Assembly (NCBI GenBank): GCA_011524605.1
Contig: WTKA01000061.1
Coordinates: forward strand, 1-47,256
Length of the DNA stretch: 47,256 nucleotides
Direction of reading: 5' to 3'
From: Hyphomicrobiales bacterium
GTDB lineage: Bacteria; Pseudomonadota; Alphaproteobacteria; Rhizobiales; WTKA01
Part shown: one piece after another, positions 7,404 through 22,477 of the stretch
Numbering within the stretch: position 1 is the first letter of the stretch
Layout of the letters: every line of letters starts with the position of its first letter
Translations under genes and position numbers: made by a program
Notes under the pieces: model-generated
Seen by the model: the letters and a program-made list of their open reading frames with translations, nothing else
The model's database searches: none
Told to the model about the DNA's origin: nothing

Positions 7404-7439
7404 GTTTGGAAGGCGTTATTAAACTTACAAGGAGTGATG

Positions 7440-8744
7440 ATGATGGGTTTAAAGCGTTATGCAACTAAAATGGCTGCGACGACTGCTGTTGCTGCGGGTC
7501 TTATGTTAAGTGTGAGCGCGCATGCAGCTGAGACAATTAAAGTAGGTGTGTTACACTCGCTTTCAGGCACGATGGCAATTTCTGAGACAACATTAAAAGA
7601 CGCAATGTTGATGCTTATTGAAGAGCAAAATAAAAAAGGCGGTCTTTTAGGTAAGCAGCTAGAGGCAGTTGTTGTTGACCCAGCGTCAAACTGGCCTTTG
7701 TTTGCTGAGAAAGCACGTGAGCTTATTGAAAAAGAAAAAGTATCTGCGGTTTTTGGTGCTTGGACATCAGTATCTCGTAAATCTGTTTTGCCAGTATTTG
7801 AAGAGCTCAATAATATCATGTTCTACCCTGTTCAGTATGAGGGGGAAGAAAGCCAGCGTAATATTTTCTACACAGGTGCGGCGCCAAACCAACAGGCAAT
7901 TCCAGCTGTTGATTATCTTATGAGTGAAGATGGCGGCGAAGCGAAGCGTTGGGTTCTTGCTGGTACAGATTATGTTTACCCGCGTACGACAAATAAGATC
8001 TTAGAAGCTTATTTGATGGCAAAAGGCGTTGCTAAAGAAGATATCATGATTAATTACACGCCATTTGGTCATTCCGATTGGCAAACAATTGTATCTGATA
8101 TCAAGAAGTTTGCTTCAGAAGGAAAGAAAACAGCGGTTGTTTCCACGATTAATGGTGATGCCAATGTTCCTTTCTATAAAGAGTTAGCGAACCAAGGTAT
8201 TGAAGCTGAAGATATTCCAGTTGTTGCTTTCTCGGTTGGTGAAGAAGAGCTTGCTGGTCTTGATACTGCTCCTCTTGTTGGTCACCTAGCGGCTTGGAAT
8301 TATTTCCAATCAGTTGAAGCTGATGTAAACGAAGAGTTTATTTCAACATGGAAAAAATTCATCAAAGACGAAGATCGCGTGACAAATGACCCAATGGAAG
8401 CGCATTATATCGGCTTTAACATGTGGGTGAAAGCTGTTGAGAAAGCTGGTACTGTTGATGTTGATGCTGTTATTGATGCTCTACCAGGTATTACTGTGCC
8501 AAACTTAACTGGCGGCATGTCAACAATGCTTCCAAACCACCATATTACAAAGCCTGTATTGATTGGTGAAATTCAAGACGATGGTCAGTTTGATATCGTT
8601 TGGGAAACAGACGGTCTGGTCCCTGGTGATGCGTGGTCAGATTTCCTTCCAGGTTCTAAAGACCTAAAGTCTGATTGGGTTGAGCTAAATTGTGGTAACT
8701 ATAATGTTGCTGAAGCTAAGTGCTTAGGCGCTGCGACTAACTAA
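7440..8744 (+). CDS. urtA: Urea ABC transporter substrate-binding protein UrtA
   Basis: About 434 residues; periplasmic receptor for urea in the UrtABCDE importer. A Sec signal peptide (LKRYATK then a hydrophobic stretch ending in AHA) is followed by the branched-chain-amino-acid-receptor fold with UrtA-typical segments GVLHSLSGTMA, NNIMFYPVQYEG, NYTPFGHSDW and the C-terminal GGMSTMLPNHH. The track starts at GTG 7434, but that codon overlaps the AAGGAG ribosome-binding site (7429-7434). The run GTG-ATG-ATG-ATG makes 7440 or 7443 the realistic start. First gene of the urea operon, downstream of the sigma-54 promoter. The coding sequence looks highly expressed relative to the membrane subunits, and a terminator follows it. 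Confidence 0.96.
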   Translation: MMGLKRYATKMAATTAVAAGLMLSVSAHAAETIKVGVLHSLSGTMAISETTLKDAMLMLIEEQNKKGGLLGKQLEAVVVDPASNWPLFAEKARELIEKEKVSAVFGAWTSVSRKSVLPVFEELNNIMFYPVQYEGEESQRNIFYTGAAPNQQAIPAVDYLMSEDGGEAKRWVLAGTDYVYPRTTNKILEAYLMAKGVAKEDIMINYTPFGHSDWQTIVSDIKKFASEGKKTAVVSTINGDANVPFYKELANQGIEAEDIPVVAFSVGEEELAGLDTAPLVGHLAAWNYFQSVEADVNEEFISTWKKFIKDEDRVTNDPMEAHYIGFNMWVKAVEKAGTVDVDAVIDALPGITVPNLTGGMSTMLPNHHITKPVLIGEIQDDGQFDIVWETDGLVPGDAWSDFLPGSKDLKSDWVELNCGNYNVAEAKCLGAATN

Positions 8745-8770
8745 TATGATTTTTATCTAAATCATTACCA

Positions 8771-8810
8771 ATGGGGCTGCCCCCTTCTCCTAAAGTAGCC
8801 CCATCTTTTT
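8771..8810 (+). terminator. Intra-operon terminator/attenuator between urtA and urtB
   Basis: An 8-bp perfect stem (ATGGGGCT 8771-8778, AGCCCCAT 8797-8804) is followed at once by CTTTTTAT. It is 26 nt after the urtA stop. It has the form of a factor-independent terminator that should let only part of transcription pass into urtB, giving excess binding protein over permease. It also contains the ATG that the ORF track used for urtB. Confidence 0.75.
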
Positions 8811-8833
8811 ATCGAACTTATGTTGGTGTATTA

Positions 8834-10450
8834 ATGAAACGCTTCATTTTATTCTATGCTTTTCTTCCGTTTTTGCTGTTGGTTAGCCCTTTAATAAGCC
8901 AGGCTGAAACTACTGATGACATTGAAGTTTATGTTGAGGTTTTAAAGTCAAAGAGCACGAAGCAAAAAACAGAAGCTATTCAAAATATAGCGAAGACAGG
9001 TCATGTTAGAGCGGGGCTCATTTTAGAGGCTTTTTTAGGTGGTAAGCTCTATTCGTTAAAAGAAAATGGCGCTATTGTTATTATAAATGATGCTGCCAGC
9101 GATATCGAGATTAGTAATGCCATTTCTGGTGAGGACTTGGGTGTTGCTACAAAAAAGCAAATTAAAAAACTAAGAATTAACAATAAGTTGCGAGGGGTTG
9201 TTAAAGCATCGCTTGCAGAGTTGCAGCTTTCCCATCCTGACAAAGAAAAGCGTATGGCAGCCGCTTTATCAAAATTTAAGAGCGCTGGTTCTTCTGATAT
9301 ACCGCTCTTAGAAAATGCCATTGCTTCTGAAGAGAATAAGTCAATAAAAAAGATTTTAATTGAAGCAAAAGCTGCTGCTGAATTAAGTAGCAATGATAGC
9401 GCGATCCAGTTGGCGGCTATTAAAATTATTGAAAAGCGGGGCGACAGTCAGGCGCTTAATTTGCTCACACAGCTTTCACAATCAGCTGAAAATGAACAAG
9501 TGAAAAATGAAGCGAAGCAGGCGGTAGGCCGTGTTGAAAGTTCACTTGCTCTTTGGGATATTTCACAAACCCTATTTTATGGCCTTTCTTTAGGCTCTGT
9601 TTTGCTGCTCGCTGCGATTGGGCTTGCAATAACATTTGGCGTCATGGGCGTCATTAATATGGCGCACGGTGAAATGATTATGATCGGCGCTTATACGACT
9701 TTTATTGTGCAAGAAGTTATCCGCAATTCCATGCCAGAGCTGTTTGATGCTTCATTATTTATCGCTTTGCCTCTTGCCTTTTTGATAACAGGACTGATTG
9801 GCATTGGTATTGAGCGGGGAATTATTCGCTTTTTATATGGTCGCCCTTTGGAAACATTGCTTGCGACTTGGGGGGTGAGTTTGTTTTTACAGCAAGCGGT
9901 TCGTAGCATTTTTGGCCCTTCAAACCGTGAAGTAGGTAACCCTAGCTGGATGAGCGGCTCATTTGAATTAGGACAAATGGCGATTACATATAATCGGCTT
10001 TGGATTATTATTTTCTCTCTTGGTGTTTTGTTCATGCTTATGCTTGCTATGAAATATACAAGTTTTGGGTTGCGCATGCGAGCGGTTACACAAAATAGAA
10101 AAATGGCGGGCTCAATGGGTATTAAGACAGGTTGGGTTGATGCGCTTACTTTTGGTTTAGGTTCAGGCATTGCAGGCATTGCTGGTGTCACGCTCAGCCA
10201 AATTGATAATGTATCGCCAAACCTAGGTCAGTCTTACATCATTGATAGTTTCATGGTTGTTGTCTTTGGCGGTGTTGGTAATTTGTGGGGGACATTGGTT
10301 GGCGCTATGTCATTAGGTGTTTTCAATAAATTTTTAGAACCTGCCGTGGGCGCTGTCTTGGCAAAGATATTGGTTCTTGTCCTTATTATTTTATTCATTC
10401 AAAAACGTCCCCGCGGGCTGTTTGCGCTAAAGGGGAGGGCTGTTGAATAA
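8834..10450 (+). CDS. urtB: Urea ABC transporter permease UrtB
   Basis: A 538-residue long-form permease. The chosen start (ATG 8834) begins a clear signal peptide (MKRFILF, then a hydrophobic core ending SQAE). The track start at 8771 lies in a terminator stem and adds 21 unlikely residues. Residues about 25-235 form a charged HEAT-like helical repeat region, a known feature of UrtB. From about 240 the LivH-type permease follows, with GVMGVINMAHGEMIMIGAY and about eight membrane segments, ending in KRPRGLFALKGR. Its stop overlaps the urtC start (TAATG). With UrtC it forms the urea channel in the inner membrane. Confidence 0.95.
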   Translation: MKRFILFYAFLPFLLLVSPLISQAETTDDIEVYVEVLKSKSTKQKTEAIQNIAKTGHVRAGLILEAFLGGKLYSLKENGAIVIINDAASDIEISNAISGEDLGVATKKQIKKLRINNKLRGVVKASLAELQLSHPDKEKRMAAALSKFKSAGSSDIPLLENAIASEENKSIKKILIEAKAAAELSSNDSAIQLAAIKIIEKRGDSQALNLLTQLSQSAENEQVKNEAKQAVGRVESSLALWDISQTLFYGLSLGSVLLLAAIGLAITFGVMGVINMAHGEMIMIGAYTTFIVQEVIRNSMPELFDASLFIALPLAFLITGLIGIGIERGIIRFLYGRPLETLLATWGVSLFLQQAVRSIFGPSNREVGNPSWMSGSFELGQMAITYNRLWIIIFSLGVLFMLMLAMKYTSFGLRMRAVTQNRKMAGSMGIKTGWVDALTFGLGSGIAGIAGVTLSQIDNVSPNLGQSYIIDSFMVVVFGGVGNLWGTLVGAMSLGVFNKFLEPAVGAVLAKILVLVLIILFIQKRPRGLFALKGRAVE

Positions 10451-11619
10451 TGTTAAGTCGTTATCTTTTAAAAAAGCTTGATATTTCAGCAATGTGGTTT
10501 TTAGCGGTTTTAGCTGCAATCGCTTTGCTTGTACCTGCACTCAATTTGCTTGTGCCTGAAACAAGCGCCTTTCACCTGTCGACATATTGGGTCGTTTTAC
10601 TAGGGAAATATGCATGCTATGCTTTGCTTGCTTTAAGCGTTGATTTGGTGTGGGGCTATGCTGGCATTCTAAGTTTGGGTCATGGTGCTTTTTTTGCGCT
10701 TGGCGGCTATGTCATGGGCATGTATTTAATGCGTCAAATTGGTTCTCGCGGCGTTTATGGCGATCCAATTTTACCTGATTTTATGGTCTTTTTAAATTGG
10801 CCTGAACTGCCTTGGTTTTGGCTTGGGTCCGATGTTTTTGCTTTCACCCTTATTATGATTTTATTTGTGCCTGGCTTACTTGCCTTTGCTTTTGGTTGGT
10901 TTGCATTTAGAAGTCGGGTGACAGGGGTTTATTTGTCAATCATTACACAAGCCTTGACTTATGCCCTTATGCTTGCTTTTTTCAGAAATAATATGGGTTT
11001 TGGCGGCAATAATGGCTTGACTGATTTTAAAGATATTCTTGGCTTTAGTTTGCAAGATGACGGTACAAGAGCGGCATTATTCTCGATAAGTATTGTGATG
11101 CTTATGCTTGGTTTTATTATTTGCCGCGCTATCATTACCTCACAATTTGGCAAGGCGTTAATCGCCGTAAGAGATGCAGAGAGCCGTGTGCGCTTTTTAG
11201 GTTATAAGGCGGAAAGTTATAAGCTATTTGTTTGGACAGTCTCTGCCATGATGGCTGGCGTTGCTGGTGCATTATATGTGCCTCAGGTCGGCATTATAAA
11301 CCCGTCTGAATTCGCACCAGCTAACTCTATTGAAACAGTAATTTGGGTTGCAGTTGGCGGTAGAGGCACATTAATCGGCGCGGTTATAGGTGCTGTATCT
11401 GTGAATTTTGCAAAAACATGGTTCACAGCTGCATTGCCAGAATTATGGCTATTTGCCCTTGGAACGCTCTTTATTGTTGTAACAATTTTCATGCCAAAAG
11501 GGATTTTGGGCTTGTTTGCTGGCCATAAAATAAAACCCTTTAACCTTTCAATTTTCGGTAAAAAATCTGTAGATGCAGAAGATGGTGGAGTAGGAGATAA
11601 TAATGCAAAAAGCTCATAA
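10450..11619 (+). CDS. urtC: Urea ABC transporter permease UrtC
   Basis: A 389-residue LivM-type permease with about ten hydrophobic segments. Family markers are SVDLVWGYAGILSLGHGAFFALGGY near the N-terminus, NNGLTDF, the EAA-like loop AVRDAESRVRFLGY, and GGRGTLIGAVIGA. It pairs with UrtB in the inner membrane. Translation is coupled to urtB by the TAATG overlap, and urtD begins 17 nt before its stop. Confidence 0.95.
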   Translation: MLSRYLLKKLDISAMWFLAVLAAIALLVPALNLLVPETSAFHLSTYWVVLLGKYACYALLALSVDLVWGYAGILSLGHGAFFALGGYVMGMYLMRQIGSRGVYGDPILPDFMVFLNWPELPWFWLGSDVFAFTLIMILFVPGLLAFAFGWFAFRSRVTGVYLSIITQALTYALMLAFFRNNMGFGGNNGLTDFKDILGFSLQDDGTRAALFSISIVMLMLGFIICRAIITSQFGKALIAVRDAESRVRFLGYKAESYKLFVWTVSAMMAGVAGALYVPQVGIINPSEFAPANSIETVIWVAVGGRGTLIGAVIGAVSVNFAKTWFTAALPELWLFALGTLFIVVTIFMPKGILGLFAGHKIKPFNLSIFGKKSVDAEDGGVGDNNAKSS

Positions 11620-12352
11620 TTCTATTCTCTATCTCGATGGCGTAAGCGTCAGCTTTGATGGGTTTAAAGCGTTAAACTCGCTTTCTCTCATTATCGAGCC
11701 AGGGGAAATGCGGGCAATTATTGGACCAAACGGCGCTGGCAAAACGACTATGATGGATGTTATTACTGGCAAAACCAAGCCTGATGTTGGCGATATTTTA
11801 CTCAATGGTAGTATTGATCTTACCAAAAAAGATGAAACGGATATTGCTCAGCTGGGCATTGGACGCAAGTTTCAAAAACCGACTGTTTTTGAAAGCCATA
11901 CGGTACAAGATAATTTAGAGCTTGCACTAAAAAATGATCGCCGCGCCTTTAAAATGCTGTTCGCAAAATTAGATGCAAGCCAATATGAGCGAATAGATGA
12001 ATTACTTGAAACAATTCGATTGAAAGACCAGCGGTATGAGCTTGCTGCTAACCTATCCCATGGTCAAAAGCAATGGTTAGAAATTGGCATGTTGTTAGCG
12101 CAAGAACCTAAGTTGTTGCTTGTTGATGAACCTGCAGCAGGCATGACAGATGCAGAAACCCATGAAACAGCAATCCTTTTAAAGGAAATAGCGAAAACAA
12201 AATCTGTTGTTGTCGTTGAGCATGATATGGTTTTTGTGCGCGAATTAGGGGTGAAAGTTTCAGTACTTCATGAGGGCTCAATCCTAGCTGAGGGAAGCAT
12301 GGATGATGTGAGCAAAAATGAGCGTGTAATTGAAGTTTATTTGGGGCGTTAA
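11603..12352 (+). CDS. urtD: Urea ABC transporter ATPase UrtD
   Basis: A 249-residue LivG-type ATPase. Walker A GPNGAGKTT (41-49), GIGRKFQKPTVFE around the Q-loop, signature LSHGQKQWLEIG (the KQWLEIG form is typical of UrtD), Walker B LLLVDEPAAGMT and VVEHDM with the switch His. TAGGAG before the ATG supports the start inside the end of urtC. With UrtE it powers urea uptake. Confidence 0.96.
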   Translation: MQKAHNSILYLDGVSVSFDGFKALNSLSLIIEPGEMRAIIGPNGAGKTTMMDVITGKTKPDVGDILLNGSIDLTKKDETDIAQLGIGRKFQKPTVFESHTVQDNLELALKNDRRAFKMLFAKLDASQYERIDELLETIRLKDQRYELAANLSHGQKQWLEIGMLLAQEPKLLLVDEPAAGMTDAETHETAILLKEIAKTKSVVVVEHDMVFVRELGVKVSVLHEGSILAEGSMDDVSKNERVIEVYLGR

Positions 12353-12355
12353 TAT

Positions 12356-13051
12356 ATGTTAGTCGTAAAAGAAATAGATCTATACTATGGCGCCTCACAG
12401 GCTTTAAAGCATGTCTCCATTCAAGCGGAAATTGGTAAGGTAACCACGGTTTTAGGACGTAACGGTGTTGGTAAAACAAGTCTGCTAAAAGCTATTGTTG
12501 GTCAACAGCCTATCAGAAGCGGCAGCGTCTCTTGGCTTGATAAGGATATTTCAAAATATACACCGCCACAAAGGGGTAAGTCAGGCATTGCTTACGTACC
12601 TCAAGGGCGTGAAATTTTCCCATTGCTCACAGTTAGAGAAAATTTGGAAACTGCTTTTGCAGCTGTTTCTTCGAAGGATAAATATATTTCAGAAGAAATA
12701 TTTGAATTATTCCCCGTGCTAAAAGATATGCAAAAACGCAGGGGGGGCGATCTGTCAGGGGGGCAGCAACAGCAGCTAGCTATTGCGCGTGCGCTTACGA
12801 TGCGACCGCAATTGCTAGTTCTTGATGAGCCAACTGAGGGTATCCAGCCTTCTATCATAAAAGATATTGGGCGGATCATTGCATTGCTACGCGATCGTGG
12901 CGATATGGCTATTTTGCTAGTAGAGCAATATTATGAATTTGCACGTGATTTAGCTAACGATTTTTATGTGCTGGATCGGGGCGAAGTTGTTTTGTCCGGT
13001 GATATAGAAAAATCAGATGAAGAAGAAATTATGCAATATTTGACAGTTTAG
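12356..13051 (+). CDS. urtE: Urea ABC transporter ATPase UrtE
   Basis: A 231-residue LivF-type ATPase. Walker A GRNGVGKTS (34-42), YVPQGREIFPLLTV, signature LSGGQQQQLAIARAL and Walker B LLVLDEPTEGIQPSI. The EGIQPSI ending and the gene order distinguish UrtE from amino-acid LivF proteins. It starts 3 nt after urtD. It is the last transporter gene before a small membrane protein and the urease genes. Confidence 0.96.
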   Translation: MLVVKEIDLYYGASQALKHVSIQAEIGKVTTVLGRNGVGKTSLLKAIVGQQPIRSGSVSWLDKDISKYTPPQRGKSGIAYVPQGREIFPLLTVRENLETAFAAVSSKDKYISEEIFELFPVLKDMQKRRGGDLSGGQQQQLAIARALTMRPQLLVLDEPTEGIQPSIIKDIGRIIALLRDRGDMAILLVEQYYEFARDLANDFYVLDRGEVVLSGDIEKSDEEEIMQYLTV

Positions 13052-13061
13052 GGAGAAATTT

Positions 13062-13268
13062 ATGCGCTTTATTATAACTATTTTATCTGCCATCGCTTTT
13101 GTTCCAAATGCCTTTGCCCATAGTCAAGGTCATGCTCAGCTTTCTGTTGAGGCCTTGTTTGTGCATATGATTACCCACCCTTATCATATTGCAATATTTG
13201 GCGGTCTTACTTTTATTCTTATTTTATTTCATGTTTCTTTGCGCTATATCATAAGGCAAAAGAAATAA
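13062..13268 (+). CDS. Small His-containing membrane protein between urtE and ureD
   Basis: A 68-residue protein I cannot assign to a family. It has a good start (GGGAGAAA 6-7 nt upstream) and is packed 10 nt after urtE and 12 nt before ureD, so it looks translated. The sequence shows a signal peptide ending AFA|H, a His-bearing stretch just after cleavage (HSQGHAQ), more histidines (HMITHPYH), one hydrophobic segment (about 46-62) and a basic tail (RQKK). The layout loosely recalls the N-terminus of HupE/UreJ nickel permeases, whose mature start is also His-rich, but it is far too short to be a permease. A role in nickel or urea handling is only an inference from position. Confidence 0.75.
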   Translation: MRFIITILSAIAFVPNAFAHSQGHAQLSVEALFVHMITHPYHIAIFGGLTFILILFHVSLRYIIRQKK

Positions 13269-13280
13269 AAGGTTTTATAT

Positions 13281-14153
13281 ATGTCCTCTCTTTTAGCTGA
13301 TACGTTGCATACAGAAGACATTATTGCATTACCGCGCGCGCAAGGCTCGCTTAAAGTAAGCTTTAAGCAAAGCGGAGGCAAAACAAAGTTAGATCGCCTT
13401 TACCAGCAGGGCTGTTTAAAAGCTCGCTTCCCTAATTTAGAACCAAAAGCGCTAAAAGAAGGGGTTATGATTAATACTGCAGGCGGGCTTACCGATGGCG
13501 ATGATATTTATCAAAAAATAAGGTGGGGTAAGCAAACAAGCGCCTGCATGACCACGCAGGCAGCAGAGCGTATTTATCTTTCCCGTCAGGACAATGCAAC
13601 GATCAACACAAAGCTTGTTGTTGAAGAAGAGGCGATGGCATATTGGCTGCCGCAGGAAACTATTCTATTTGATGGCGGGAGATTTGTCCGCAATAACCAA
13701 GTTGAAGTTGCCGCAGGTGGGCGATTGCTTGCAACTGAAAGCCTAATTTTCGGGCGGTCTGCTATGAATGAACAGGTGATAAGCGGGCATGTTTTTGATA
13801 GCTGGCGCATAAAATACGACAATCAACTGGTCTTTGCGGATGGCTTTTCTTTATCGGATAATATGGCTGATTGTTTGCAAAATAAAATAATAGCCCATGG
13901 TGCAAAAGCAATTGCAACTCTGATTTATGCAGGTGAAGATGCCGCGTCTGTAGAGGCTTATCTTAAAACACAAACCAGTGGTTTAGAGTATGAACAAACC
14001 TATCTAGGATCTAGTTTATTACCAAAAATTTTGCATATAAGAATTTTGTCAGAAAATCCTGAGTATATGCGTCTTGCATTAATGAAATTAATTTCTAAAA
14101 TAATGGCACATATCGACGAAACGCATATATTGCCTAGAGTTTGGCTATGCTAA
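13281..14153 (+). CDS. ureD: Urease accessory protein UreD
   Basis: A 290-residue UreD/UreH chaperone. Characteristic stretches are a basic segment KARFPN, MINTAGGLTDGDDI, TTQAAERIYLS, YWLPQETILFDGGRF, ESLIFGRSAM and the C-terminal RVW. UreD binds apo-urease and, with UreF and UreG, forms the complex that delivers nickel to the active site. It starts 12 nt after the small membrane gene and lies 29 nt before ureA, as in many proteobacterial urease operons. Confidence 0.93.
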   Translation: MSSLLADTLHTEDIIALPRAQGSLKVSFKQSGGKTKLDRLYQQGCLKARFPNLEPKALKEGVMINTAGGLTDGDDIYQKIRWGKQTSACMTTQAAERIYLSRQDNATINTKLVVEEEAMAYWLPQETILFDGGRFVRNNQVEVAAGGRLLATESLIFGRSAMNEQVISGHVFDSWRIKYDNQLVFADGFSLSDNMADCLQNKIIAHGAKAIATLIYAGEDAASVEAYLKTQTSGLEYEQTYLGSSLLPKILHIRILSENPEYMRLALMKLISKIMAHIDETHILPRVWLC

Positions 14154-14182
14154 GCTTGTTAATCTATTAAGGAGAGGGTTAG

Positions 14183-14485
14183 ATGCATTTAACGCCTAGA
14201 GAAAAAGATAAGCTGCTGATTTCCATGGCGGCTATTGTTGCGAGAAAGCGCTTAGAGCGTGGCGTAAAATTAAATTACCCAGAAGCCATTGCTTTAATTT
14301 CTGATTTTGTTGTTGAAGGCGCGCGCGATGGTAAAACAGTAGCGCAACTCATGGAAGAGGGCGCGCATGTCATCACTCGAGAGCAGGTTATGGAAGGCAT
14401 TGCTGAAATGATCTATGATGTGCAGGTGGAAGCGACCTTTCCTGATGGTACAAAGCTTGTTACCGTTCACGAACCTATTCGATAA
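14183..14485 (+). CDS. ureA: Urease subunit gamma
   Basis: A 100-residue gamma subunit, the usual length. [10 protein letters not shown] at the start, [14 protein letters not shown], the DGKTVAQLM segment and [19 protein letters not shown] at the end are diagnostic. It is a separate gene rather than fused to beta, the common bacterial arrangement. A strong AAGGAGAGG site precedes the ATG. Confidence 0.97.
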
Positions 14486-14509
14486 CCTATGGCCTAAGGA
14501 GAGAGTGTT

Positions 14510-14821
14510 ATGATTCCTGGTGAAGTTTTTCCAAAAGACGGCGATATTATCTTAAATGAAGAGGCGCCTATATGTGTAATAAAAGTTTCAAATACGGGTG
14601 ACCGCCCTATTCAAGTTGGTAGCCATTACCACTTTTATGAAACCAATAGCGCATTAGAGTTTGATAGAGAAGAAGCGCTTGGGTTAAGGCTCGATATTCC
14701 TGCTGGTACGGCTGTACGCTTTGAACCGGGACAGAGCAGAGATGTTACGCTTATCCCTTTAAGCGGAAAGAAAATTGTTTATGGCTTTAATCAAGCTGTA
14801 ATGGGCGCGCTAAAAAGCTAA
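14510..14821 (+). CDS. ureB: Urease subunit beta
   Basis: A 103-residue beta subunit. [12 protein letters not shown] at the start, [35 protein letters not shown] and the KIVYGFN end are typical. Preceded by AAGGAGAG, 24 nt after ureA. Together with UreA and UreC it forms the (abc)3 urease assembly. Confidence 0.97.
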
Positions 14822-14835
14822 TCAGAGGATTTAAT

Positions 14836-16548
14836 ATGCCATATAAACTATCTCATGCCGCTTATGCCTCCATGTATGGACCAACAAAAGGCGATAAAAT
14901 TCGATTAGCTGACACAGACTTAATTGTTGAAGTGGAAAATGATTACACCACCTACGGTGAAGAAGTAAAGTTTGGCGGTGGTAAAGTTATTCGTGATGGT
15001 ATGGGACAGTCTCAGGTCACGCGGGCTGATGGCGCTGTTGATACTGTGATTACAAATGCTTTAATCATTGATTATACGGGCATTTATAAAGCGGATATCG
15101 GGCTGAAAGACGGTCTTATTGCAGGGATTGGTAAAGCTGGAAATCCTGACACACAGCCCAATGTGGATATTATTGTCGGCCCTTCTACCGAGGCTATTGC
15201 GGGGGAAGGGAAAATTTTAACGGCTGGTGGTTTTGATAGCCATATCCATTATATTTGCCCTCAGCAAATTGAAGAAGCTTTGATGTCAGGGGTTACAACC
15301 ATGCTTGGTGGTGGTACAGGGCCTGCAACTGGCACCAATGCTACAACATGTACACCAGGAAGCTGGCATATCTCTCGGATGTTGCAAGCTGCGGATGCTT
15401 TCCCCATGAATTTAGCTTTTGCAGGAAAGGGGAATGCGAGTTTGCCCCAAGCTTTAGAAGAGCAAATTAAAGCAGGGGCTTGTGCGATGAAGTTGCATGA
15501 GGATTGGGGGACAACGCCAGCTGCGATTGATTGTTGTTTGTCTGTTGCGGACGACATGGATGTTCAGGTTATGATCCATACTGATACGTTGAATGAATCT
15601 GGTTTTGTGGAAAACACAGTAGCTGCTTTTAAAAACCGAACCATTCACGCTTTTCATACAGAAGGGGCTGGTGGCGGTCATGCGCCAGATATTATTAAAG
15701 TATGTGGAGAGGCTAATGTTCTACCCTCATCAACAAATCCCACGCGCCCTTTCACGGTAAATACCTTAGAAGAACATTTAGATATGTTGATGGTGTGTCA
15801 TCACTTGGATCCAAATATTCCCGAAGATATCGCATTTGCTGAAAGTCGTATCCGAAAAGAAACAATTGCGGCGGAAGATATTTTGCATGATATGGGTGCC
15901 TTTTCAATCATAGCATCTGATAGCCAGGCTATGGGTCGTGTTGGAGAGGTTTTAATTCGTACTTGGCAAACAGCCGATAAGATGAAGCAGCAACGTGGGC
16001 GTTTGGTTGAAGAGACAGGGGATAATGATAATTACCGTGTGAAGCGCTATATTGCGAAATATACGATTAACCCTTCTATCGCCCATGGATTGTCAAAACA
16101 TATTGGCAGTATTGAAAAAGGCAAGTTAGCTGATCTTGTCCTTTGGTCTCCAGCCTTTTTTGGAGTAAAGCCTGATTTGATTTTAAAAATGGGGACAATT
16201 GCTGCAGCGCCTATGGGGGATCCGAATGCATCCATACCAACGCCGCAACCTGTTCATTATAGACCTATGTTTGGTGCCTATGGAAAGTCTGTTTCAAATA
16301 GTTGTGTGACTTTTGTCTCTCAGGCTGCAATGACTGAAAATGTCAAAGAAAAATTTGAACTAGAAAAAGCGTTGCTCCCAGTGGAAAATACACGCGGTGG
16401 CATTTCCAAGAAAAGTATGAAGCTAAATGATGCAATGCCGGATATTGAGGTGCATCCTGAAACCTATGAAGTAAGGGCTGATGGTCAGCTCTTAACTTGT
16501 GAGCCCGCTTCTGAATTGCCAATGGCACAGCGCTATTTCCTATTTTAA
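14836..16548 (+). CDS. ureC: Urease subunit alpha (catalytic)
   Basis: A 570-residue catalytic subunit that hydrolyses urea to ammonia and carbamate. All nickel-site residues are present, two positions later than in Klebsiella numbering: His136 and His138 (DSHIHY), carbamylated Lys219 ([10 protein letters not shown]), His248 (MIHTDTLNE), His274 ([10 protein letters not shown]) and Asp362 ([10 protein letters not shown]). The flap Cys321/His322 (MVCHH) is also intact. Nothing suggests inactivation. AGAGGA ribosome-binding site; 14 nt after ureB. Confidence 0.98.
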
Positions 16549-16556
16549 GGCATGTT

Positions 16557-17009
16557 ATGATAGAGGCAATTTGTATTAGTGAAACACAAGCAAAAGCTTT
16601 TAACCAAGTTGAGCTTGTTTATAGTGATAGAGTCCGTCGCCGTTTGGCAATGACCTGTGTTGATGGTTTTGAGTTTTTGCTCAATTTACCTCATGTGGTT
16701 GAGCTAAAAAATGGCGATCATATAGAGCTTGAAGATGGTCGGCAAATTTTAGTCAAAGCTGCTCAAGAGGCGTTAATGTCGGTTAAGGCAAAAAATACGC
16801 TGCATTTAAGCCAAACCGCTTGGCATATTGGTAATCGCCATTTAGCCTGTGAAATTCATGAGGATCATCTGCTTTTGCTTTATGATCATGTCATTCAAGA
16901 CATGCTAGAGAAACAAGGCTGTATTGTTACAAAAATATCTGCTCCTTTTCAGCCGTTAGGTGGCGCTTATGGTCACGGTGGCATTGAAGGGCATCACCAT
17001 CATGGCTAA
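16557..17009 (+). CDS. ureE: Urease nickel metallochaperone UreE
   Basis: A 150-residue UreE. The N-terminal domain includes RVRRRLAMTCVDGFEFLLNL and DGRQILVKAA. The C-terminal metal-binding domain has WHIGNRHLACEI, and DHVIQDMLEKQG, with [15 protein letters not shown] closing the protein as a short His-rich nickel-binding tail. UreE hands nickel to UreG. Its stop is overlapped by the ureF start. Confidence 0.94.
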   Translation: MIEAICISETQAKAFNQVELVYSDRVRRRLAMTCVDGFEFLLNLPHVVELKNGDHIELEDGRQILVKAAQEALMSVKAKNTLHLSQTAWHIGNRHLACEIHEDHLLLLYDHVIQDMLEKQGCIVTKISAPFQPLGGAYGHGGIEGHHHHG

Positions 17010-17697
17010 AGCGTTAACACAAAGTGAGGTTCATTATATTCTTGCAGCTTGGTTTTCCCCTAGCTACCCGGTGGGTGCTTTCAGCTATTCCCACGGTCTT
17101 GAATATGCAATTGAACACCAGCTTGTCACAGATAAGAATAGCGCACAAAACTATATTGAAACATGTCTACAATTTGGTGCAGGTCAATTAGACGGTCAAT
17201 TTTTAGCAGCAATTTATAAAGCTGGCTTAAAGGAAGATTGGCAACAAATCGTAGAGATAGCAGAGTTGGCTTCTGTTTTTGTTGGTACAAAAGAGTTGAT
17301 GTTAGAAAGCCATGCGCAAGGCGCTGCTTTTATTAAAATTACAAGGGAATGTTGGCCAAGCTTGTTGTTAAACAATTTTATTGAAAAATATAAAGGCCCT
17401 TATGCTTATGCGGTTGCGGTCGGTGTCGCTGCTGCCGGCTTAAAATTACCATTAGAAACAGTATTAACAGCTTATTTACATGGATTTTGTGCCAATATCA
17501 TTTCCGCTGCAACGCGAATTGTGCCATTAGGGCAAACCGATGGACAGCGTATAACTGCGGCAATAACAAAACCGGTGGAGAAAACAGTAAATCAAGTGCT
17601 GTCTTTAGAGGAATTCCATTTTTCTAGCGCCACCCTAATGGTTGATTGGTGTTCAATGAAGCATGAAGAACAATATACGAGGCTATTTAGATCATGA
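17002..17697 (+). CDS. ureF: Urease accessory protein UreF
   Basis: About 231 residues from ATG 17002, overlapping the ureE stop by 8 nt. The longer track start (16960) would run deep into ureE and adds non-family residues. UreF features: [18 protein letters not shown], the helical domain with [22 protein letters not shown] and [14 protein letters not shown]. UreF bridges UreD-bound urease and UreG and gates GTP-dependent nickel delivery. The ureG start overlaps its stop by 4 nt (ATGA). Confidence 0.93.
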
Positions 17698-18314
17698 CAG
17701 AAATAAAAAGAAATACAGGCCCTTTGCGTGTGGGTATTGGTGGTCCTGTTGGTTCTGGGAAAACAGCTTTAACAGAAGCTTTATGCTTTAAATTGCGTGA
17801 AAAATACTCAATTGCTGCCATTACAAATGATATTTACACAAGAGAAGATGCTCAATTTCTAACACGCTCAGGCGCTTTGCCGCCAGAAAGAATTGCTGGC
17901 GTTGAAACAGGTGGCTGTCCACATACGGCAATTCGTGAGGATGCCTCTATTAATTTAGCAGCTGTGGCAGAAATGCATGAAAATTTTCCTGATCTGCAAA
18001 TTATTTTCATTGAATCAGGGGGCGATAATCTCTCCGCAACTTTTTCTCCTGAATTAGCAGACATAACCCTTTATGTTATTGATGTTTCTGCAGGGGATAA
18101 AATTCCACGTAAAGGCGGCCCTGGTATTACGCGTTCAGATTTGCTGATTATCAATAAAATTGATCTGGCGCCTCTTGTCGGGGCAAGTCTTGAGGTTATG
18201 GATCGTGATAGTAAGAAAATGCGTGGGGAGCGCCCATTTTTATTCACAAATATCAAGGCCAATCAGGGTGTTGATGAAGTGATTAAAATGATTGAAAAGC
18301 TGGGCGGCCTTTAG
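17694..18314 (+). CDS. ureG: Urease accessory GTPase UreG
   Basis: A 206-residue SIMIBI-class GTPase. P-loop [10 protein letters not shown] (16-25), [10 protein letters not shown], the nickel-binding CPH motif (75-77) within [35 protein letters not shown], and the guanine-specificity NKIDLAP. It hydrolyses GTP to drive nickel insertion. Last gene of the ure cluster; a strong terminator follows. Confidence 0.97.
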
Positions 18315-18350
18315 GCTTAGGACGTGATTGTTTTAATAGGTCACAGCGTA

Positions 18351-18394
18351 AAATAAGAGTAATGAGAGGTTTGTCATTACTCTTATTTTTTTAT
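18351..18394. terminator. Terminator after ureG (bidirectional)
   Basis: A perfect 14-bp stem (AATAAGAGTAATGA 18352-18365; complement 18374-18387) with an 8-nt loop and a following T-run closes the urea/urease block. The reverse strand also ends in TTATTTTA, so it can serve the convergent PodJ-like gene. Confidence 0.92.
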
Positions 18395-18490: not shown

Positions 18491-21400
18491 TTAACCTTCG
18501 GTGCGTAATTTTAATTCTTCAAGCAAAATACGATCAATTGATCCAGTGGCCTCTATTTCATAGGCTTTTTGGAAGGCTTGAACAGCTTTTACCGTGTTAG
18601 GCCCCAAAAATCCATCAGGCGTACCTGCTTCAAACCCTAACATATTGAGCATGGATTGCGCGCGCTTTACGGAGTGGCTGAAGCTATTGCTGGTTTGTAC
18701 TAAGACAGGGGGCTCACTAGTAGTATTGTTTGCAGAGACATTCCCTTTTTTCATCTCATTCAGCATTTGCTGCTGATAATCGTTGATAACCACACCATTG
18801 TCTTGGGTTAAAGAGGAGGTCGTTTGCTTTAAACGCATGTCAGATGTAGCCACATTGATTTTTGGCGGTAAATTCACACTTTGATTCTTTTCTTTTGGCT
18901 GCCAATTTTTTGCAAGTAAGCTAGCATTTTTTAAATCAAACGCAGACATTTTTGCTTCTAGATCTTTTCTTAATCTTTCAGCGTCTTTATCCCCTTTTAA
19001 TGCAGCATGGGAAAACCATTTATAGGCTAAAACATAGTTTTGAGGTATGCCAATTGCATCTCTATTCATGACAGCTAAATTAAATTGGCTGTCAATTAAG
19101 CCTAATTCAGCAGCTTTTATGAAAAGGCGATTGGCTTCAAGGAGATTTTTCTCCCCGCCTTTGCCAAGAAAATGAAGATAGCCAAGATCATGCATTGCAT
19201 TTACATGGCCTTGCTGTTCTGCAAGGCTATAGTAATCTCTTGCGCTTGCAGCGTCTTTTTCTACCCCTATGCCTTTTTCTAAATGCTCACCAACACGGTG
19301 TTGTGCAGTTGCATTGCCTAAGTCAGCAAGGCGCTGCATCCATTTAAACGCAGATTGTTGATCACCTTTTGCCTTGAATTTTTCCGCAACATAATAAAGC
19401 GCCCCTTGATCTTTGTCTTGGGCAAGTTTTTTAATGTTAGGGGCAATAAGATCATCTGAAATATCTTGTATATCAGTAAAGCTGACTTCTTCATCTTCTT
19501 GCTTGGAAATAAATTTATCTGCTTTTTTCTGTATTTTTATAATATCTGCTTCAGACCAGCTTTTTGATGAATCGGTTATAGAGCCAAGTAAGGATGGCTC
19601 AATTGCATCTTTACTATTGCCAACATCTAATGCAACAGTGTCAATATATTCAGCAGGCTCTGGCAAGTTTTGTGTTGTCTCACTTTCCTCATCCAGTGAT
19701 ATAGCGCGTGGTAGCTCTTGAGTGCCCATCATACTAGGCAGCGGAAAATTATAACTTTCATTCTTTAGATCTTGAGGTATTGACCCTGTATATAACATTG
19801 TTTCTTCATCAGTAGACAGTGCGATATTTTCATTTTCAGCGCTTTTATTTTGTTGGAAAAAGATAAAGCCAGCAGCTAGAGCAAGGGTGAATAGGGATAC
19901 GCCCATCAAGCTTTTTCTTGTATTTTTTTGCGCTTCTGCAGCAATTGTTGTTTTTAATGGTGCATTATCTTTATTAAGGTTTTGACGTGCTTTTGCAAGT
20001 AGAGCAGCATTACCTACTGCAATTTCACGGTTTGTATCAAGTGTTTGCTGGCTTTCAACAGGTTGAGGTGATTGTGTAAGGTGAGTTGGATTAAAGCCAA
20101 GGCCAGGTTCAATGGGGCGATGCTCTTCTTCTTGGCTTTCATCCCAGCTGATAGGTGCGTGTGAATCTCTTACTATTTTTTCGCCATGAGCTGCGGAGCT
20201 TACGGGGTTAATTGCTGCACTTGCTTCCACATAAATTTCTTCTTCGTCTGACTGCTCAATCATAAATTCTTGTGGTTGCCCAATATCAAAACTATTTATA
20301 TTTGTTTCGTTTGTTTCATATGGTTGATTTGGGAAAACCTTCTCCAATGGGTCTGTGAAAGAGGAAGGTTCTTCTTTTTGCTGTTGCTCCTGAATGATTG
20401 GTTGAATATCAACATTCTCTGATAATGTTATTGGCGGATTATTATTCAAGCTTTGAGGCTCGCTAGCAGCTATAATGCCATTATAATCTGCGCTGTGGGG
20501 CTTGGCTTCTCGGTTTGGATCTAGTGCTGGGGCTCGATCTGATGCACTAAAAGTCATTGGGGAGAGTTGAGCAACGCTGGCTAGATTAGGGTCATTAAGA
20601 AGCTCTGCAACATTAATCTCATTCATATATTGATTGTCATCATCAATAGGTAGGCCTGTTGTGCCAATACTATTAAAATCATGCTCTTCATCAGTGGATG
20701 GATAGCCCATTTGCATTGCTGCATCTTCAAAATGGCCAATCGTTTTCAGGTCAATATTTTCAGGCTTAAGCACTGTGTTGTAAAAATCATCACCTTCTAT
20801 TTTCACGCTATTTTCTTGTTCAATGTCAATTGTTGATTTTTTTTCACTCATAATTTCTTTGCCTAAAAGGTTCTGGCTACTTTGATGCTCATTTTTAGAG
20901 GGCGTACTATTGTTAACTTCTTCAAAATTGTCTGGTTGATCAGATTTTTCAGCTTCGCTAAAGATTGAATAGTCCTTATTTTTTATACTTGCTTGTTCAG
21001 CTTTTTCTTCATGCTTGCTTGTGTTGACCTCAGGCATTATTGAGGAAGATAAGGGGGCAACAGCCTTTTGCATGATTGGGTCTGGTTTATACTTAGTGGT
21101 TTGCAAATTGCCTTCGGCATTTTTCAGCTGTACTAATATATTTTGAACTTGGTCTGTTAGGTTTCCAAGCTTGTTTTCGATAAAATTTTGTGTGCTTTGA
21201 GCAACTTGCTTCGTTGATTCAACAGATTTATTCAGGTTAGAGATCGCCATATCTGTTTGGTCTTGTCGGGAATTAATCGAATCAAATGCTTCCTGCATAG
21301 AGTTGAGCTGATTTTCTATGTTTGAACTGGCAAACTGTGCGTTATCAATTTCAGGAAGCTGGGATTCTAATTCTACGGCATGGCTGCCATCAATATCTTC

Positions 21401-22477
21401 ACTAGTCCCTGTTCTTACATAGAGTTCTTCAAGCTTTTGCAAAGATGATTTAATTTCTTCGAGATTATCAGCTTCATTCCGATTAGGAGCCAGTTCAGAA
21501 ATAACTATTTTTATATCAGCTATATCATCGATTAACTGATGAATAACCTCTGAGTTTGTGGCGGCTTTATTATCACCTTCAGGCTGAGCTTCCTGCTCCT
21601 CCATTTTTTTTGTAAGCGATTCAACGACTAGGTTAAGGCTTTTGATATCACGACTATTAAACTCTGTTTTTGCTGTTTTAATATCTTCTGCTAATGCATT
21701 TAATGAATGCGTAATATCTCTTAAATATGAAGCTTCTTCTTGTAGAGGGCCACCAAGCGTTAGAATATCTGCGCGCAGTTGATTAATTTGCTCTTCTTGA
21801 TTTGGTTCTAATTTCCAATTTTTTTGGATATCATCTAGCCGCCCCCTGAATTCGACCATGGACTCAAGAGCTGGTCTTAATTCATTAGCTTTATGATCTA
21901 AGGATAGATAGACTTTTTCGAGTTTGTCGCTGGCCGCATCAAATAAATGAGCCGATTGCTCAACTGAATTTTCTATCGTACTAGACATGCGCATCAAGCG
22001 ATTTTCAAGGCGGCTTAGCCTGTCTTCAGGTTCATCTATAATATGGCCATAAATAACTTGGTCATCAATTTTTGTCAGACGGTTTTCAATTCTATTCAGC
22101 TGGTTATCAAGTTTATCTTCTTTAGGAATATTATCTATTTTGTCTTCGATAAGGCACATGCGCTTATCCATGAAGTTTTGATATAATTCTTCTACAGATG
22201 GCACGTTGCCAGTTGATCTATTTGGTGCATTATAGCTATTTATAGAGCTCTCAGCTTGCTTTTGAACTTGATTTTCATGTTCCAAAACGCTTAGGCGGTT
22301 TGCTAATACTGAAATTGCAGAGCGAGAATCATCTTTCATTTCTGTAAGCTGTGACCCTAGCCGCTCAATGGCAGATTTCATATTTTTTTGAGGCACAGTC
22401 TGATTGTTTCGAAGATTTTGATCTTTCGAATCATCTTTCTGTCCCGATGCTTTATTCTTAAGTGTATTCTCACTCAT
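18491..22477 (-). CDS. podJ: PodJ-like polar localisation protein with Sel1 repeats and peptidoglycan-binding domain
   Basis: A 1328-residue protein. Residues about 30-460 are charged heptad-rich sequence expected to form coiled coils. About 460-850 is acidic, Gln/Ser/Asn-rich and probably disordered. One transmembrane segment lies at about 855-875. Then come about four Sel1/TPR-like repeats (about 1020-1150; motifs GNATAQHRVGEHLEKGIGV, YKWFSHAALKGDKDA) and a C-terminal PG_binding_1 domain (about 1260-1325; LGFEAGTPDGFLG). This order matches PodJ, the polar organiser of Caulobacter and Hyphomicrobiales: cytoplasmic scaffold, membrane segment and periplasmic Sel1/peptidoglycan part. The gene symbol is an architecture-based call, since N-terminal coiled coils align poorly. 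It is monocistronic and convergent with ureG. Confidence 0.75.
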   Translation of the reverse strand: MSENTLKNKASGQKDDSKDQNLRNNQTVPQKNMKSAIERLGSQLTEMKDDSRSAISVLANRLSVLEHENQVQKQAESSINSYNAPNRSTGNVPSVEELYQNFMDKRMCLIEDKIDNIPKEDKLDNQLNRIENRLTKIDDQVIYGHIIDEPEDRLSRLENRLMRMSSTIENSVEQSAHLFDAASDKLEKVYLSLDHKANELRPALESMVEFRGRLDDIQKNWKLEPNQEEQINQLRADILTLGGPLQEEASYLRDITHSLNALAEDIKTAKTEFNSRDIKSLNLVVESLTKKMEEQEAQPEGDNKAATNSEVIHQLIDDIADIKIVISELAPNRNEADNLEEIKSSLQKLEELYVRTGTSEDIDGSHAVELESQLPEIDNAQFASSNIENQLNSMQEAFDSINSRQDQTDMAISNLNKSVESTKQVAQSTQNFIENKLGNLTDQVQNILVQLKNAEGNLQTTKYKPDPIMQKAVAPLSSSIMPEVNTSKHEEKAEQASIKNKDYSIFSEAEKSDQPDNFEEVNNSTPSKNEHQSSQNLLGKEIMSEKKSTIDIEQENSVKIEGDDFYNTVLKPENIDLKTIGHFEDAAMQMGYPSTDEEHDFNSIGTTGLPIDDDNQYMNEINVAELLNDPNLASVAQLSPMTFSASDRAPALDPNREAKPHSADYNGIIAASEPQSLNNNPPITLSENVDIQPIIQEQQQKEEPSSFTDPLEKVFPNQPYETNETNINSFDIGQPQEFMIEQSDEEEIYVEASAAINPVSSAAHGEKIVRDSHAPISWDESQEEEHRPIEPGLGFNPTHLTQSPQPVESQQTLDTNREIAVGNAALLAKARQNLNKDNAPLKTTIAAEAQKNTRKSLMGVSLFTLALAAGFIFFQQNKSAENENIALSTDEETMLYTGSIPQDLKNESYNFPLPSMMGTQELPRAISLDEESETTQNLPEPAEYIDTVALDVGNSKDAIEPSLLGSITDSSKSWSEADIIKIQKKADKFISKQEDEEVSFTDIQDISDDLIAPNIKKLAQDKDQGALYYVAEKFKAKGDQQSAFKWMQRLADLGNATAQHRVGEHLEKGIGVEKDAASARDYYSLAEQQGHVNAMHDLGYLHFLGKGGEKNLLEANRLFIKAAELGLIDSQFNLAVMNRDAIGIPQNYVLAYKWFSHAALKGDKDAERLRKDLEAKMSAFDLKNASLLAKNWQPKEKNQSVNLPPKINVATSDMRLKQTTSSLTQDNGVVINDYQQQMLNEMKKGNVSANNTTSEPPVLVQTSNSFSHSVKRAQSMLNMLGFEAGTPDGFLGPNTVKAVQAFQKAYEIEATGSIDRILLEELKLRTEG

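Follow-up and report, generated by a model that had tools for sequence, protein, structure and literature searches.

Proteins of the HupE/UreJ type carry two characteristic motifs, namely HX5DH, which is located at the first helix, and a second motif, FHGx[AV]HGxE. The ECF transporters of nickel and cobalt are aided by small membrane subunits, including NikN, NikL, and CbiN. In the urease cluster of Rhizobium leguminosarum, unassigned ORFs are said to have been noted in the older literature. Metal catchers fused to HupE/UreJ-2 permeases have been described as anglerases (Ang-1 and Ang-2), which are beta-sandwich domains of approximately 175–180 residues, and a mature N-terminal histidine, which is experimentally documented as a chelator of Ni or Cu in other proteins, also occurs ahead of HupE/UreJ-2 (PMC12537917). 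A 2009 survey counted 62 bacteria that possess nickel enzymes and no known nickel transporter (PMC2667541), and it is described as unclear, for one organism, how Ni-dependent guanidine hydrolases, an enzyme class that requires this metal, are loaded without chaperones (PMC11410670).

The gene described here encodes a 68-residue protein and lies in a 47,256-nucleotide contig of a Hyphomicrobiales bacterium (WTKA01000061.1; hereafter, the window), between the genes for a urea transporter and those for urease. It belongs to a small, unnamed family that travels with different nickel enzymes, which is what is new; an earlier description of this family was not found in the literature searched, in which few subscription papers were covered.

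The Small Gene and Its Operon

The features of the locus, all on the forward strand, are as follows.

7434–13051 (+): urtABCDE, urea ABC transporter genes (ORFs with homologues in other genomes), the 5′ part of what is probably one transcription unit with the small gene
13050–13055 (+): ribosome-binding site AGGGAG, seen in the sequence, overlapping the urtE stop codon, 6 nt 5′ of the small-gene ATG
13062–13268 (+): small ORF of 68 aa, ATG to TAA, encoding a signal peptide, a mature His N-terminus, and a single membrane helix (a mini HupE-N-like protein)
13281–18314 (+): ureD, ureA, ureB, ureC, ureE, ureF, and ureG (urease; ORFs with homologues), the downstream part
18350–18389 (+): terminator-like hairpin, a 16-pair stem with a T run 3′ of ureG, at the end of the urt-ure unit

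The stop codon of urtE ends at 13051, leaving a gap of 10 nt to the small ORF, which is followed after 12 nt by the ureD start at 13281. The GC content by codon position (0.46/0.32/0.29) fits a coding gene, and the relative adaptiveness to the operon's own codons is 0.67 (neighbors, 0.65–0.74), a value that one stop-containing frame likewise reaches. Since 17 relatives share the same conserved residues (see below), the ORF is more than a chance reading frame, and it is a real gene. The earlier note on this DNA had argued for a real operon member from the tight spacing and a good ribosome-binding site, and the short gaps, the AGGGAG sequence, and the operon-like codon usage bear this out. Terminator-like sites are no more frequent here than in shuffled sequences. 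No convincing terminator was found between the small ORF and ureD, and the next convincing terminator-like hairpin is located only after ureG; therefore, urtABCDE, the small gene, and ureDABCEFG probably form a single transcription unit.

Two other features were recorded in and beside this unit. The Rfam family 5′ ureB sRNA matches positions 14992–15277 on the reverse strand (121 bits), antisense to the start of ureC, a match that may stem from conserved urease coding sequence and not from an RNA. Positions 18491–22477 (−) encode, convergently to the urease operon, a 1328-aa protein containing Sel1 repeats and a peptidoglycan-binding domain.

Predicted Layout of the Protein

The small protein, MRFIITILSAIAFVPNAFA followed by HSQGHAQLSVEALFVHMITHPYHIAIFGGLTFILILFHVSLRYIIRQKK, consists of a predicted signal peptide with an AxA site, a histidine-bearing loop, one membrane helix, and a basic end, encoded as follows.

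13062–13118 (+): predicted signal peptide MRFIITILSAIAFVPNAFA, with a putative cleavage site between AFA and H; the A-H junction is invariant in the family
13119–13187 (+): predicted periplasmic loop with mature H1 (H20), H5 (H24), H16 (H35), P21 (P40), and H23 (H42), from the family alignment and the HupE register
13179–13265 (+): membrane helix and basic C-terminal tail, from the AlphaFold2 helix at mature residues 21–48 and the hydropathy of the sequence

Six histidines are present (H20, H24, H35, H39, H42, and H57), and the mature loop peptide, HSQGHAQLSVEALFVHMITHPYH, is predicted to start with His1. An AxA-H junction is visible in the alignments. The signal-peptide-like start, the histidines, and the one membrane segment noted previously are all present as described. 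AlphaFold2, run on 10 mature sequences, predicts a short helix at residues 10–19 and a long helix at residues 21–48 (mean pLDDT 83.7, pTM 0.45); this prediction informs on the loop plus the membrane helix and no further.

Members of the Family

Searches of Pfam and NCBIfam returned no curated family above cut-off for the small protein or its relatives; the only match of the window protein in all of Pfam was a sub-threshold one to DUF6488. All searches for relatives were sequence-only and departed from the window protein and one relative, the first seed itself being at a nickel locus. Searched with the single sequence, 101 relative genomes yielded just one credible relative, in G079 (E = 0.0099; genomes and loci are referred to by G and L numbers), and most matches of this first search (L003–L017) were dismissed as chance. 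Later profile searches covered the order (two-row profile, 398 genomes), the class (eight-row profile, 385 genomes), and the phylum (eleven-row profile, 349 genomes), and further members came from scanning 84,980 species genomes with a DNA pattern. A scan of genome contigs with the window protein alone yielded nothing, and plasmid searches with four members gave no match. The family thus assembled comprises 18 strict members, including the window protein and 17 others.

In the eleven-row alignment, the sole invariant positions are A19, H20, H24, H35, P40, and H42, which correspond in mature numbering to A-H1, H5, H16, P21, and H23. Among all members, L143 has T in place of P21, and two Rhodobacteraceae members (L145 and L147) have a shorter loop; the tail is short, variable, and poorly conserved. 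The window protein shows every feature by which the family was delimited (A-H1, H5, H16, P, H23, one helix, and fewer than 90 aa). With a profile of the mature part, members score at least 48.7 bits, compared with at most 23 bits for the next ORF among the 18,508 ORFs of the fetched loci.

Neighborhoods at Nickel-Enzyme Loci

All 18 strict members lie inside a nickel-enzyme cluster or directly border one, on the same strand, 11 (including the window) with urease and seven with guanidine hydrolase, and the small genes often overlap a neighbor by 4 or 11 nt. Homologues beside urea genes, for which the earlier note had asked, do occur, 10 of the 17 further members being at urease clusters. The position within the urease operon differs among hosts: the urtE-ureD slot is used in the window and G127, the ureA-ureB interval in G081, G354, G256, G984, L143, L145 (Rhodobacter sp. 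KR11), and L147 (Paracoccus sp. JM45), and the site directly 3′ of ureG in G625 and G522. This variation indicates that the linkage is not mere inherited gene order. Because G079 and G114 belong to one genus and L146 is nearly identical to G729, the members amount to about 15 independent cases. The distribution is patchy; most ureolytic relatives are without the small protein, which is thus not essential for urease.

The guanidine hydrolase loci (G079, G114, G365, G729 [Denitrobaculum], L144, L146, and L149 [Roseibium]) share a constant gene order, in which a putative urea/guanidine ABC transporter is followed by the hydrolase, a His-rich protein, and the small protein, with an overlap of 4 or 11 nt between the genes for the latter two. 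By sequence, the hydrolase matches the Ni-dependent guanidine hydrolase GdmH of Synechocystis (PDB 7esr/7oi1) with an E-value of 1.8e-163 and keeps the residues equivalent to Thr97 and Trp305, which have been named for this enzyme (PMC11410670). The His-rich protein (L072:8484–9005 and its equivalents in L070, L075, L076, L144, L146, and L149), of approximately 130–200 aa, is an observation in its own right: it stands between the hydrolase and the small protein in all seven guanidinase loci, has no Pfam or NCBIfam match, and is possibly an unrecognized nickel chaperone.

Looser relatives, defined as small proteins from the phylum search with a mature HxGH and one helix, were found at nickel loci beside the NiFe-hydrogenase large subunit and HybE (G785), Ni-SOD (G898 and G1007), and ureG (G901). 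Elsewhere, three looser relatives from one family adjoin tatC, one adjoins a B12-dependent ribonucleotide reductase, and one adjoins unidentified genes. The nickel role suggested in the earlier note is strongly supported, by genomics, through the placement of the family at urease and Ni-guanidinase loci and of the looser relatives at NiFe-hydrogenase and Ni-SOD loci. One-helix small proteins of the HPGHD type adjoin Ni-SOD in two distantly related proteobacteria (L183:3497–4250 and L184:4000–4691), and one of the HTGHH type (L181:4005–4235) is encoded in a NiFe-hydrogenase operon, 3′ of the large subunit.

Nickel Importers in the Host Genomes

As previously stated from the sequence, the window contains no nickel permease gene, and no HupE, CbiM/NikM, or NicO/NiCoT protein was found above cut-off in the whole 2.3-Mb draft genome (96% complete). 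Another contig (G000:C114) encodes a peptide/nickel ABC binding protein and permease, the nearest solved relatives of which bind nickel or a metallophore (CntA, NikA); these proteins score below the NikA cut-offs, and the system is an importer candidate only. The binding protein (locus L137) is likewise predicted to have a mature N-terminal histidine, HDSAHEEK following AFA. Among twelve host genomes, a CbiM-type protein was found in five, a clear HupE in three, and neither in five (the window's genome, G081, G354, G625, and G984). From this mixed importer content, no fixed permease partner is evident.

Relationship to HupE/UreJ

The mature H1, H16, and H23 of the family are in register with the mature His1 and the HX5DH motif of HupE, in which HX5DH occupies mature residues 16–23 and its first histidine falls at 15–17 in most of 25 sequences. 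The window protein has HX6H (HMITHPYH) instead, such that the spacing is kept and the Asp is absent; D-H is retained in L067, L068, L073, L143, L145, L147, and L151. With respect to the curated cut-off of PF04955, the window protein gives no match and its relatives score 14.6–20.4 bits against the required 23; nonetheless, the recurring sub-threshold Pfam match of members is HupE_UreJ, always at profile positions 1–54. A multi-helix permease with FHGx[AV]HGxE was also sought in the window protein, which has 68 aa, one helix, and no such motif. Membership of the HupE family was therefore rejected on cut-off, length, number of helices, and second motif.

Among 18 non-small matches of the family profile examined in the phylum search, 13 were HupE. 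When loops were shuffled with the signal peptide and helix kept, the real sequences scored a sum of 326.8 bits against the HupE N-terminal profile, compared with 227.6 ± 9.1 for the shuffles (best of 300, 253.9 bits), which places the real loops approximately 11 sd above the shuffle mean, a figure that is not a strict probability because members are related to one another. For the window protein alone the difference is modest (9.1 versus 6.2 ± 1.0). An hhalign comparison of the mature parts of the family with HupE gave an E-value of 0.23, and a mature-only family profile did not retrieve HupE among its top matches. Since these mature-only comparisons fail, what argues for homology is the shuffled-loop test together with the register; on these sequence comparisons, common descent of the family from the HupE N-terminus is plausible. 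The description of the protein as a minimal HupE/UreJ-like start without the permease is consequently upheld as regards the register of H1, H16, and H23, the similarity of the loop beyond shuffles, and the missing permease, and it is weakened by scores below the Pfam cut-off and by the failure of the mature-only profile to reach HupE.

A gene-by-gene inspection also covered urease clusters of the order, for the most part a single cluster from each genus. Between ureA and ureB, these rhizobia encode a full-length HupE in L097, L102, L115, L117, and L127 and a short protein with a signal peptide, histidines, and one helix in L083, L084, L086, L089, L105, and L106. That of L083 (G011) is an evident truncated HupE, with 42% identity over 62 residues to the L102 HupE (E = 3.5e-13), and the others represent a second short type with a signal peptide, one helix, a mature histidine, and a cluster of the HPH type. 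In L094, L108, and L112, this interval is occupied by a third kind of short membrane protein, which lacks a signal peptide and roughly follows HPLxxFDLxxIGxxLVVVM. In the ureB-ureC interval of L083, L085, L086, L090, L108, L119, L130, and L131, secreted proteins of approximately 130–145 aa with a common TQMxMNxCA-like pattern were observed.

Proposed Role and Alternatives

Because the family stands beside nickel-enzyme genes and resembles the first segment of HupE, the small protein probably helps collect nickel for the neighboring enzyme. The reading preferred here, with confidence somewhat above even, is that of a putative membrane-tethered, periplasm-facing nickel-capturing accessory. Signal peptidase would cut after AFA to leave a mature chain beginning with His1, whose free amino group and ring would offer a natural metal chelate. 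His1, His5, His16, and His23 may then form a nickel site on the outer face of the single membrane helix, in an arrangement resembling that of the first helix and HX5DH motif in HupE/UreJ. Ni2+ captured in the periplasm would be presented to whichever importer the host has, and translation together with urease or guanidinase would raise the nickel supply exactly when the enzyme is made, such that the neighboring nickel enzyme (here, urease) could be metallated during production.

The alternatives that remain are, in descending order, a self-assembled importer, a docking or sensing protein, a protein for another metal, and a decaying HupE remnant. Several copies of the protein might together form a mini-permease, an oligomer in which their helices replace those of HupE, as the lack of HupE and CbiM in several hosts, the window's included, and the HX6H where HupE has HX5DH would allow; this is nevertheless unlikely, given the one helix, the missing second HupE motif, the poorly conserved tail, the NikA/CntA-like candidate in the window's genome, and the retention of the small protein in hosts that have HupE or CbiM. 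A nickel sensor or docking helix that anchors or regulates the urease or guanidinase maturation machinery at the membrane would be in keeping with translational coupling to maturation or structural genes and with the basic cytoplasmic tail, yet this reading is given little credence, as the conserved H1, H5, H16, and H23 are on the predicted periplasmic side and the tail is short and variable. An N-terminal histidine chelates several transition metals (PMC12537917), and a few looser relatives lie off nickel loci, one of them beside a B12-dependent reductase; a protein for copper, cobalt, or zinc that accompanies these operons by happenstance is, however, equally doubtful if not slightly more so given that all 18 strict members occur with urease or Ni-guanidinase and that looser ones occur with Ni-SOD and NiFe-hydrogenase.

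The truncated HupE in the ureA-ureB slot of G011 speaks for a functionless, decaying HupE remnant, but this origin is very improbable for a family that conserves its histidines above all other residues in divergent hosts and whose genes are tightly spaced in different positions and operons. The earlier note had also suggested that the protein stabilizes UrtBC. Apart from the position directly 3′ of urtE in the window and G127, this partnership is unsupported and scarcely credible: seven members lie in guanidinase clusters, where the ABC transporter is a different one, and around several urease-linked members no urt genes were present within the region inspected. The idea was dropped for this lack of linkage.

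On a broader view, free-standing "mini-HupE-N" proteins in operons for urease, guanidinase, hydrogenase, and Ni-SOD could form a previously undescribed class that supplies nickel locally to each enzyme, acting either as oligomeric importers themselves or as capture subunits for a generic importer, and could account for part of the nickel users without a recognized importer; this broader proposal is tentative and held at well below even confidence. A nickel catcher encoded in the operon itself, and so short that annotation can miss it, would be a candidate both for importer-less nickel users and for the loading of Ni-guanidinase.

Comparison with Known Systems

DUF6732 (PF20506) and DUF6488 (PF20098) are likewise short secreted or membrane proteins, with weak similarity mainly in the signal peptide, whereas every member of the small family is far below their cut-offs. 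NikN, NikL, and CbiN resemble the proposed accessory as small membrane proteins that help a nickel importer, but the window protein has no Pfam match, including to CbiN, NikN, or CbtB, and its genome has no nikM or cbiM. The anglerases share the idea of an N-terminal-His metal catcher, placed at the membrane before a HupE/UreJ-type permease; in contrast, the small protein is free-standing, a bare loop and one helix of 49 mature residues with an all-helical model. HupE/UreJ differs in its length (approximately 175 mature residues versus 49) and in possessing FHGxAHG and more than one helix; D22 of HupE is replaced by Y, F, or W in many members of the small family, the best of which reaches 20.4 of the 23 bits. 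For both, nevertheless, a signal peptide followed by a mature His1 is predicted, and both have metal-type residues where the first helix begins, at mature positions 16 and 23. Both also occur in operons for urease and hydrogenase, the ureA-ureB slot among the shared sites.
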